Positions 1,887-5,534 of a stretch of 64,000 nucleotides of DNA are shown here, piece after piece. Position 1 is the first letter of the stretch; every line of letters begins with the position of its first letter. The notes beneath the pieces were generated by a model. The model did not search any database, was not told the origin of the DNA, and saw nothing but the letters and a program-made list of their open reading frames with translations. The position numbers and the translations under genes are program-made. The DNA is from Actinomycetes bacterium (GTDB taxonomy: Bacteria > Actinomycetota > Acidimicrobiia > Acidimicrobiales > RAAP-2), in NCBI GenBank assembly GCA_021779855.1, contig JAJXZW010000002.1, positions 1 to 64,000 on the forward strand. The letters are read 5' to 3'.

Positions 1887-2124
1887 TCATCAAGGCCCGA
1901 ACTCAACAAGTGAAGTGGAAACCATTCCTGGGGCAGGTCAAGATGTCAACTAAAGCGACAGCAGTCCCGCCCGCCCCTCGCCCTCTGGCGTTTCCATCGG
2001 CGCGGAACGGAAATCTGGACCCACACTCGCAGTGTAACGAGCAGCAGCTTGATGCTTGCCGACGGCTCATCTAGGGTATCCACACCACGAACGACGCCCC
2101 GCAGGCGTGGATGAAGGTTCTGAC

Positions 2125-3627
2125 GTGTACGCACACGAGATGCGAATCCAAGGTTTCCGCTCGATCTCTCTCATCGACCCGATACCACTCGGACCGATAA
2201 CAGTTTTCGTCGGACCGAACAATTCTGGAAAGAGCGCGATTCTCCGTGCCCTCACGATGCTCCAGGAGCCAGTCGCCTTTAACACCGAGGACTACCACCA
2301 CGGCTCGGATCCAGACTTCGCCGTCGAACTGAAAGTGTCAAAGGAGAACGCGTTTCCAGTCCTTCGACTTAAGGACTCCCCCGACGGCACTGTTGTCACC
2401 ATAACAACGACAAACAACAGAAACAGGATTAGGACATTTCGCACCCTGTCAACGGAGGGCCAGGAGCAAGAGATCCCTCGCTTCGGCCCAACACGGAGTG
2501 AAGCGCTCATGGCTGGGTATTTCCACGACCGCCGCACCTTGAATTTCAATCCTTCGGTTAACGGGGCGATTGAGCAGACAATCGCTGGGGGCGACTACAA
2601 CCTCACCTCACGAATTGACGGAGCAATGTCCGGCCCCTCAGGAACTGTCTACCGTGAGCTCTGCCGCCGCGTCTTCGGAGTAGAAGTTGGGACGATATTC
2701 CAAAGCGACGGGAAGAACCCCGGCAGAACAATCGCAGACGAATTTGATGTATCGCTCTTGAGAATGGGTGAAGGCATTCGCAACTCGGTCGACATCCTTC
2801 AGGAACTATCTCGAAACAGAAACCATATCTACCTTATTGAAGAGCCGGAGTCGAATCTCCATCCTTCGGCTCTGAGGGAGTTTCTCCGCGTGCTCATTGA
2901 GTATTCCGGATCGAACCAATTCATTGTTTCAACACACTCCGACGTCGTAGTCAGGTATTTGGGATCAGAGGACTCCACCAAGATCCACCGCGTATCCCTC
3001 GACCAACTCTCGGTCGTGCCCCACACGGTTGTCGTACCATCATTAGACACCTTCGAGCGACGCGAAGCATTGGAGGATCTTGGCTTTCACTCCGAGCTGC
3101 CCATGGCGTGGATCGTCTTCGAAGAGAGTTCCGCCGAATCCGTCATTCGCGACTTTCTCATTCCCCAATTCTGTCCCCAACTTGCGGCCGTCCAAACCAT
3201 TTCTTGTGGTGGGTTACGAAAGGTTCGCGCACTAGTTGAAGATCTCGGCCGCACGATTCTGTGCCTATACGTGGCGCGCACAGGGGTGCCCGTATGGACA
3301 ATTGTCGATGGTGGCGAAGAGGAGGCGACAGTCGTACAACAGCTTCAAAGGGACTTCGCACAATTCGGCATCCATAAATTCATTCAGTGGAAGGCTCACG
3401 ACTTTGAGGAGTACCTACCAGCGAGATTCGCTGAAAACGTCAATCGGGTCAGGACCGAAGCCGATTCGACTAAGAGGCGAGAATTGAAGGGAGAGTTGAT
3501 TCACCAAGTACTTGACTGGGCGCTGGGCAACGTACCCGAGGCGCGGAGTGAGTTCCAGGAGTCAGCGACTGAGGTGCTCCTGGTACTGAGCGAGATTGCA
3601 GGCTCGCTAAGGCTCATTGAACCGTGA
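2125..3627 (+). CDS. OLD-like ATPase with C-terminal TOPRIM-like domain (candidate antiphage nuclease)
   Basis: Walker A GPNNSGKSAIL, signature-like LLRMGEGIRN, Walker B HIYLIEEPESNLHPSALREFL, H-loop IVSTHSD; C-terminal IVFEESSAESVIRDFLIP, PVWTIVDGGEEE, FEEYLPARF. GTG at 2125 has GAAGG 7 nt upstream; ATG at 2140 is an alternative. Confidence 0.8.
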   Translation: MYAHEMRIQGFRSISLIDPIPLGPITVFVGPNNSGKSAILRALTMLQEPVAFNTEDYHHGSDPDFAVELKVSKENAFPVLRLKDSPDGTVVTITTTNNRNRIRTFRTLSTEGQEQEIPRFGPTRSEALMAGYFHDRRTLNFNPSVNGAIEQTIAGGDYNLTSRIDGAMSGPSGTVYRELCRRVFGVEVGTIFQSDGKNPGRTIADEFDVSLLRMGEGIRNSVDILQELSRNRNHIYLIEEPESNLHPSALREFLRVLIEYSGSNQFIVSTHSDVVVRYLGSEDSTKIHRVSLDQLSVVPHTVVVPSLDTFERREALEDLGFHSELPMAWIVFEESSAESVIRDFLIPQFCPQLAAVQTISCGGLRKVRALVEDLGRTILCLYVARTGVPVWTIVDGGEEEATVVQQLQRDFAQFGIHKFIQWKAHDFEEYLPARFAENVNRVRTEADSTKRRELKGELIHQVLDWALGNVPEARSEFQESATEVLLVLSEIAGSLRLIEP

Positions 3628-3774
3628 ACCAGGCGGCTCTCGTGCAGTTGGAGGGTGCTGCGATAGAGAGTGCGCACTCTCCCACAACGCGAAACGAGTG
3701 CCACCGTCAGACGTGAGAGTGGTAAGTTGCGCTTGCCACCGAGTCCGCAATCCCTCAATGTGAGGAGTCCCACC

Positions 3775-4337: not shown

Positions 4338-4748
4338 TCATTCGGTGCTTGAACGCAGACCCACCAGCGCAGCTTCGAGTGCTTGTCGAACGCTTGCCGC
4401 ACGACTGAATGTCACAAAGTGGAACACTTCATCGGGATTAGTGCAGGCAACACGCACGTACATTTCGTCTGCCTTTCGCTTGTTATGGATGGCGTTGGCG
4501 AGAGAGCCGGCCGGACCAGCGATGAGCCACCAAGCCAGACGGCCCGAGTCTCGTGTCCGATCCGGTTCTACGAGGCCATAGGCGATAGAACGAACGGACT
4601 CCCATTCGATGCGCAGTTCACCTCGTCCATTCGTCCACACAAGGCCCTGACTGGAAACGACTAGCGGACCGCGACTACCTGGAGCACCTTCCAGCTTCAC
4701 CTCAAATATTCGACTTGTCGGCAACGTCCGCCACCAAGGTGTTGTCAC
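4338..4748 (-). CDS. Hypothetical small protein, possibly PH-like fold
   Basis: GTG at 4748 (VTTPWWRTLPTSRIFEVKLEGAPGSRGPLVVSSQGLVWTNGRGELRIEWESVRSIAYG...); alternating beta pattern and C-terminal helix; no recognised family. Confidence 0.45.
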   Translation of the reverse strand: MTTPWWRTLPTSRIFEVKLEGAPGSRGPLVVSSQGLVWTNGRGELRIEWESVRSIAYGLVEPDRTRDSGRLAWWLIAGPAGSLANAIHNKRKADEMYVRVACTNPDEVFHFVTFSRAASVRQALEAALVGLRSSTE

Positions 4749-5534
4749 ACGAGCATTATGACTCTGGGACTGGCAACCTGGCAATGCTGGCACTGGCTGG
4801 TCAGCGCCTTCATCGCTGGCTGAGGGTCGTTTTGTCGGGCCCCTGTTGCATGTGGCCCTTTTTCAATCAGTCAGTCGCCAGTGCGAAGTGGCAGACTTAT
4901 CGTTTCGCGTCTCCGCCACCAACAGGGTGAGGTTATCTAGCACGCGGCCAGGGGGTTGTTGCGGAATCGTCACCGTGCGTCTCCGACACCATGCAGTGGG
5001 AAGGATTCCACGAATCCGCGCCCTCGGGAGCGGCTCCCCGACACGGGAGTCGGGTTCGCGGCGGGCACCACCTGGCCGAAGCGGGCGCTCGATTCCGATC
5101 CCGACACGGATCGCTTGTACGGGGTGCACTGCGGGTGCGGCGCTTCGGCCGGCTGTAGCATCGCCAACGTGGCCCTTGACACTGGCCAGACCGCCCCACT
5201 CCACGACGATGAGAGCTGGGGGGCGGTGGCACCCGTCGTCCGAGTGGAGCGAAGCGTCCGCCGTGTCGGCCGCTGCCCCGACAGCCGGTATCCGCTCGAC
5301 ACCCAGTTCGGTCCGCCGGGTGCCGGGTACGGCATCGCCGACGGCGACATCCACCAGCCACCCGAAGTCAGCGGTCACGACACCGAGGCGCTCCACCTGC
5401 CCGTCAAAGGGGACCACCACACCCCACTAACACCGCCGGGAACCGGTGCCGCGGCCCGACTGGCCCGGCGCGCGTCGGGCGCCGCCAGCGTCGGGCGCGA
5501 CGGCGCACATGTGCACAGCGAAAGAGGAGTCATC

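Follow-up and report, generated by a model that had tools for sequence, protein, structure and literature searches.

Class 1 OLD proteins, represented by P2 Old, TsOLD of Thermus scotoductus (6p74) and E. coli YbjD/OldB, are stand-alone proteins of approximately 500-580 aa in which an N-terminal ABC ATPase is joined to a C-terminal Toprim domain; their genes have no conserved partner and are phage- and element-borne. TsOLD, BpOLD and GajA, the Class 2 protein of Gabija, cut DNA. The substrates published for other relatives include tRNA, which is cut by AriB of PARIS (PMC12409363) and, as cited in PMC13261556, by P2 Old. The archaeal OLD protein Cran1 acts in the cell cycle (PMC12796447). Little is understood about stand-alone OLD genes, which are rare.

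The window analysed here, a stretch of 64,000 nucleotides from an Actinomycetes bacterium (contig JAJXZW010000002.1), contains a gene that resembles the Class 1 OLD genes in its stand-alone position, domain order, size and lack of a conserved partner. The encoded protein shares just 19% identity with TsOLD in the structural alignment. Class 1 OLD proteins possess the motifs VEG..(D/E) and DxD, whereas the window family has EESSAE in place of the former and most of its members have DxGxxE plus a His in place of the latter; moreover, unlike that of Class 1 OLD proteins, the C-terminus of the window family is missed by Pfam and, in isolation, by Foldseek.

Other ATPase-Toprim systems are also matched. 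GajA has the same architecture (Foldseek E 5.6e-15 to 1e-11) but is longer than the window protein of approximately 500 aa, and no GajB-like helicase (UvrD/PcrA/Rep-like) was noticed beside the window gene, beside the second copy in the same genome or in the examined neighbourhoods, as judged from ORF readings and selected scans. AriA of PARIS is the top PADLOC defence-library match (E=1.6e-25), which is confined to the ATPase motifs, and the fused AriAB model matches as well (E=5e-14). PARIS (Class 4) likewise couples an ATPase to a Toprim nuclease, with DUF4435/AriB adjacent or fused to AriA; the window protein is a single 500-aa fusion that lacks a separate DUF4435 gene, and no Pfam DUF4435 match exists in or beside it. 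The retron Eco8 OLD (Class 3) and the PtuA proteins of retrons and Septu give structural and profile matches, mostly via the ATPase; no reverse transcriptase or HNH partner was noticed among the protein-coding genes of the examined neighbourhoods. Because no such partner genes were seen, membership in Gabija or PARIS was rejected, as was, more tentatively and from protein-coding neighbours, membership in a retron. Cran1 (Class 5, Sulfolobales) has a similarly incomplete DxD motif (LxD) and still nicks DNA (PMC12796447), but it is archaeal, has a membrane-protein partner and a cell-cycle role, and lacks the first rather than the second Asp.

The gene and its ATPase half

The ORF is intact over 500 codons, and its GTG start aligns with the starts of relatives. 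The gene and its ATPase motifs are located as follows:

2113-2117, + strand: GAAGG, likely ribosome-binding site 7 nt before the GTG, predicted from the sequence
2125-3627, + strand: OLD-like ATPase-Toprim gene, 500 aa, GTG start (ORF, Pfam, start alignment, structure model, HHalign)
2212-2235, + strand: Walker A, GPNNSGKS, residues 30-37 (sequence, family alignment)
2833-2865, + strand: Walker B and D-loop, LIEEPESNLHP, residues 237-247 (sequence, family alignment)
2929-2943, + strand: H-loop, STHSD, residues 269-273 (sequence, family alignment)

Walker A, Walker B, D-loop and H-loop, which define the N-terminal ABC-type ATPase of the OLD family, are all present, and Pfam matches to AAA_15 (E=8.5e-24) and AAA_21 (E=6e-20) agree with the complete set of ATPase motifs reported in a first-pass annotation of this DNA. 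DUF2813 also matches the ATPase part (E=8.6e-9). The same annotation had called the gene AT-richer than its flanks, and its GC content is indeed 54.2% vs 73.0 +/- 2.5% in 1.5-kb windows across the rest of the window. No terminator or sigma-70 promoter above chance was found near the gene. A 151-aa ORF at 4338-4793 (-) lies in the same lower-GC stretch and shows no significant family match.

Toprim evidence in the C-terminal half

The first-pass annotation had described a TOPRIM-like region that keeps the leading Glu (FEESSAE) and a FEEYL motif and reads VDGG instead of DxD. All three motifs are found, with VDGG at residues 394-397 (D395-G-G397):

3118-3138, + strand: Toprim motif 1, FEESSAE, residues 332-338 (HHalign); E334/E338 correspond to BpOLD E400/E404 (PMC6755086)
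3304-3324, + strand: Toprim motif 3, VDGGEEE, residues 394-400; D395 is kept and the second Asp is replaced by G397, with E400
3397-3420, + strand: HDFEEYLP, residues 425-432; H425 is coupled to G397/E400, and the invariant E428 is the probable metal-B Glu
3487-3489, + strand: invariant Lys455, candidate for the catalytic Lys/Arg of OLD nucleases (family alignment)

The full-length AlphaFold model has a pLDDT of 84.4 and a pTM of 0.82, and its top PDB match in Foldseek is TsOLD 6p74 (E=1.6e-16, 569 columns), followed by GajA and then the retron-Eco8 OLD; part of the structural score against TsOLD stems from the ATPase. When modelled alone (pLDDT 91), the C-terminal half adopts the order strand-helix-strand-helix-strand-helix-strand, as in Toprim, and the motifs follow strands 1, 2, 3 and 4 in a Toprim-like placement. 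With this isolated model as query, Foldseek yields nothing below E=0.001 from either the PDB or the viral library, and a Pfam search of the C-terminus returns no significant Toprim family match.

Alignment of the family C-terminus with 61 OLD Toprim tails by HHalign scores 94.2% (E=1.2e-7), with 95.7% for the members that have DxD and 79.8% for those that have DxG, and the reversed-sequence controls score 0.5-1.2%. The 61 OLD-type tails were collected for this comparison, and both sides were left untrimmed from the H-loop onward; an earlier run with trimmed tails had scored 60% for the whole family and was redone in this way against trimming bias. In the resulting register, E334 falls on the Glu of VEG, E338 on its +4 acid, D395/G397 on DxD and E428 on the C-terminal Glu, for which the BpOLD equivalents are E400, E404, D455/D457 and E508 (PMC6755086; TsOLD residues in PMC7049728). 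The second metal site, which comprises the acid at +4 from the Toprim Glu and the C-terminal Glu, is present as E338 and E428. From the HHalign score, the motif placement and the topology, and despite the negative Foldseek and Pfam searches, we conclude that the C-terminus probably is a divergent form of the Toprim domain of the OLD family, as recognized on profile evidence only. The absence of a Toprim fold from the predicted structure had been named beforehand as evidence against the annotation; the isolated-domain search gives it some weight, whereas topology, motif placement and HHalign favour a divergent Toprim.

The family and the two forms of its metal motif

Full-length relatives number at least 34 distinct sequences and come from Bacteroidota, Actinomycetota, Planctomycetota and Pseudomonadota as well as from a Nostoc plasmid and phages. 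Genome contigs contribute sixteen loci, from Bacteroidota, Actinomycetota (Kribbella, Micromonospora, Plantactinospora), Planctomycetota, Pseudomonadota and Dormiibacterota, and the locus L025 among these is split into two frames; nine viral contigs and one Nostoc plasmid carry other members, and further members occur in genomes from the class of the genome G463 and from the order of Micromonospora. A gap in E-values sets the family apart: its members lie below 1e-50, other ATPase-Toprim proteins above 1e-12. The host genome (2.06 Mb, 51 contigs) contains a second full-length copy on contig C44 that is 40% identical to the window copy. None of the 36 congeneric genomes in a first sample has a full-length copy, the only full-length match among 61 near relatives is in the window's own genome, and in wider samples 1/397, 8/395 and 2/349 genomes have one, centre genomes included. 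The presence of the gene across genomes is sporadic.

E334, D395, E428 and K455 are invariant in the 34 distinct members, 33 of which retain E338. At position 397, 20 members have Gly and 14 have Asp. Every G397 member has Glu400 and His425 (20/20), and every D397 member has Gly400 (14/14, the DGDxxG form), with His425 in one. The complete Glu plus DxD of the OLD Toprim is therefore kept by 14 members and lacking in the window protein and 19 others. This lowers but would not void OLD membership, since Cran1, which is accepted as an OLD protein, is likewise incomplete, and we assign the gene to the OLD family with high confidence.

In a tree built with the motif columns excluded, in which long branches are present, the window protein and the second copy are sister to a DGD-type Kribbella protein (support 100/98). 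The hypothesis that the DxG members form one clade is rejected (p-AU 0.0055), which indicates that the change at position 397 occurred more than once, in a direction that may be either way. The link between positions 397 and His425 has a simple Fisher p of 1.5e-8, which ignores kinship; by independent contrasts there are only 3 independent pairs (p=0.25), so that the kinship-corrected coupling is suggestive and not significant.

The alignment thus characterizes the altered motif as a conserved family state, one of two alternative forms, and not as decay. A nuclease-dead OLD protein, in which a non-catalytic Toprim would serve in structure or sensing and the phenotype would come from the ATPase alone, had been offered in the first-pass annotation as one option and would account for the lost second Asp; Toprim folds without metal ligands exist (PMC6755086), and the Toprim domain of E. 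coli YbjD is dispensable for its anti-phage phenotypes (PMC13261556), so nuclease chemistry may not be what matters. We nevertheless consider a dead enzyme unlikely, because DxG occurs in 20 of the 34 distinct members, always with the Glu at +5 and the His before the C-terminal metal-site Glu, and the remaining ligands are invariant or nearly so in the 34 rows. BpOLD D457A alone, at the position equivalent to G397, cleaves without discernible change (PMC6755086), and Cran1, which lacks the first Asp (L391-x-D393), is still an active nickase (PMC12796447), so that an enzyme without the second Asp need not be dead. In P2 Old, every metal-ligand mutant abolished killing (PMC7049728). Nuclease-dead decay was dropped as the first choice on the grounds of the strict residue coupling and the preserved ligands, and for the same reasons we favour a metal site that is remodelled and working. 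Replacement of the second Asp by Gly, together with E400 and H425, may have reshaped and not abolished the two-metal site (E334, D395 / E338, E428), and the window protein is on balance likely to be an active nuclease.

The best reading of these data is a subfamily of Class 1 (stand-alone) OLD defence nucleases that appears to be new as a subfamily. More tentatively, and at somewhat less than even chances, it might be an OLD subfamily in its own right, with a Toprim site that alternates over evolutionary time between DGDxxG and DxGxxE plus His. Such a toggle, if true, could alter the metal, the substrate (e.g. RNA instead of DNA) or the switching-on by the ATPase; no account of a Toprim nuclease whose catalytic site switches in this manner was found in the literature compared. 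The family lets the need for individual Toprim residues be studied as a natural experiment, in that the same protein occurs with DxD or with the paired Gly, Glu and His, and a scan that looks only for DxD would mistake many OLD-type proteins for dead ones.

Genomic context and proposed function

The position of the gene next to IS elements, as annotated earlier, is confirmed by the following features upstream of it:

1-705, - strand: IS110-type transposase (Pfam E=4e-19), truncated at the contig start
852-1968, - strand: IS3-type element whose frames are interrupted (ORFs 1578-1886 and 1021-1581/852-1313); the terminus at 1968 is found at other places in the genome too
1969-2031, - strand: stump (~20 codons) of a gene termed gene X, head-to-head with the nuclease gene and cut by the IS3-type element; 82% identical to C44:3597-3659

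The stretch 1969-2031 is recognized as the start of gene X by this identity and by similarity in 7 gene-X elements, and the similarity breaks at the IS3-type end. On C44, the second copy is also head-to-head with gene X (127-aa product), which is followed by a replication-initiator-like ORF (by reading; no Pfam match) and then by a large serine recombinase gene that overlaps tRNA-Leu(GAG) at its 3' end; this element looks intact. Gene X occurs in 8/99 congeneric genomes; wherever the downstream module is complete it is the same one, and the low-GC cargo on the opposite side differs. Two more of these elements lie at tRNA-Leu(GAG), which makes three genomes in all. Because the gene-X stump occupies the same head-to-head position, the window copy most plausibly represents cargo that remained on the IS-cut remnant of a serine-recombinase integrative element.

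Several observations concern these mobile sequences. The element with gene X, the initiator-like ORF and the large serine recombinase (L200, on G000:C44, 1982-6689, and L216-L223) is genus-wide, and its variable low-GC cargo includes a DUF2971 protein, a match to a DRT-type PDDEXK model, a ParB-like protein and others; it is a possible cargo hot spot for defence genes, and its variable cargo slot makes this integrative element one more source of genes such as this one. An IS-type end of ~74 bp is repeated in the host genome (window 1895-1968, C12:8158, C15:440, C15:68419, C44:294), in places without an obvious full element. Just 3' of the gene, 36 bp (window 3642-3677) are 89% identical to L221:827-862, a gene-X-bearing contig of another congeneric genome, and may be part of the element. 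A DUF6338 membrane protein is encoded directly downstream of the second copy (L200 1234-1884, -); it was rejected as a partner, as there is no trace of it in the window and it was not seen beside other relatives.

The neighbourhoods of 19 loci, 141 genes in all, share no recurrent family except one ABC-transporter pair, and the gene is therefore regarded as having no conserved partner. It is an isolated single gene, as are those of Class 1 OLD proteins. The first-pass annotation had noted that no partner gene follows, which holds at the window and extends to the relatives, and its options of a single-gene system and a fused ATPase-effector are equivalent here and both fit. Some relatives stand alone among core genes (L010 after dnaK, L012 after rpoB), a position that by itself does not indicate defence. 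Others lie downstream of a cluster of Vsr, cytosine methyltransferase and restriction-enzyme genes (L203) or adjoin AbiU and Type I R-M genes (L206). The phage copies occupy moron positions: L113 adjoins portal/terminase, possibly the site of P2 old; L114 is flanked by integrase and tape measure, and L119/L090 by J and tape measure; L120 follows tail gene D. The Nostoc plasmid copy follows ParA/ParB.

A defence role is quite likely. The N-terminal ABC-type ATPase would sense or gate, and the fused C-terminal Toprim would act as the nuclease: a phage trigger may lead to ATP binding or hydrolysis that frees the Toprim site, the freed site may cut phage DNA or host tRNA, and the cutting would block the phage either directly or through arrest of the cell. 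As with P2 Old, Gabija and PARIS, the protein most likely works as an ATP-gated nuclease that responds to infection. The combined reading of a stand-alone Class 1-like OLD nuclease, ATP-gated, with a remodelled metal site and carried as cargo on the integrative element now cut by IS elements, is probable. Of the earlier interpretation, the OLD-type ATPase/Toprim fusion with no conserved partner and a probable anti-phage role is retained, and the nuclease-dead option is not favoured.

It is improbable that the gene instead serves in maintenance, addiction or exclusion for mobile elements. Both copies in the host genome derive from gene-X/serine-recombinase elements, and the ParA/ParB neighbours and the phage-borne copies would fit such a role; however, the neighbours differ everywhere, copies lie beside R-M and AbiU genes or singly on chromosomes, and the cargo next to gene X varies in other elements. 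Phage- and plasmid-borne genes of this type usually target competitors, so that the two readings overlap. A housekeeping ATPase-nuclease for repair or the cell cycle, like Cran1 in Sulfolobales, is very improbable: homologues with such a role outside defence islands had been named in advance as counter-evidence, and several do lie among core genes, as is typical of Class 1 OLD, but the phage moron sites, the R-M loci, the sporadic presence, the alien GC and the mobile contexts argue against it.

Two neighbourhoods deserve separate mention. In a Cytophagales MAG (L012 3952-9482), the family member lies directly 3' of rpoB, where rpoC is expected. In L202 (5811-8438), the member adjoins an IS110-type transposase, identified by eye, and an ATPase that matches the PADLOC-type ATPase-Toprim_I-B ATPase (E=2.3e-45).
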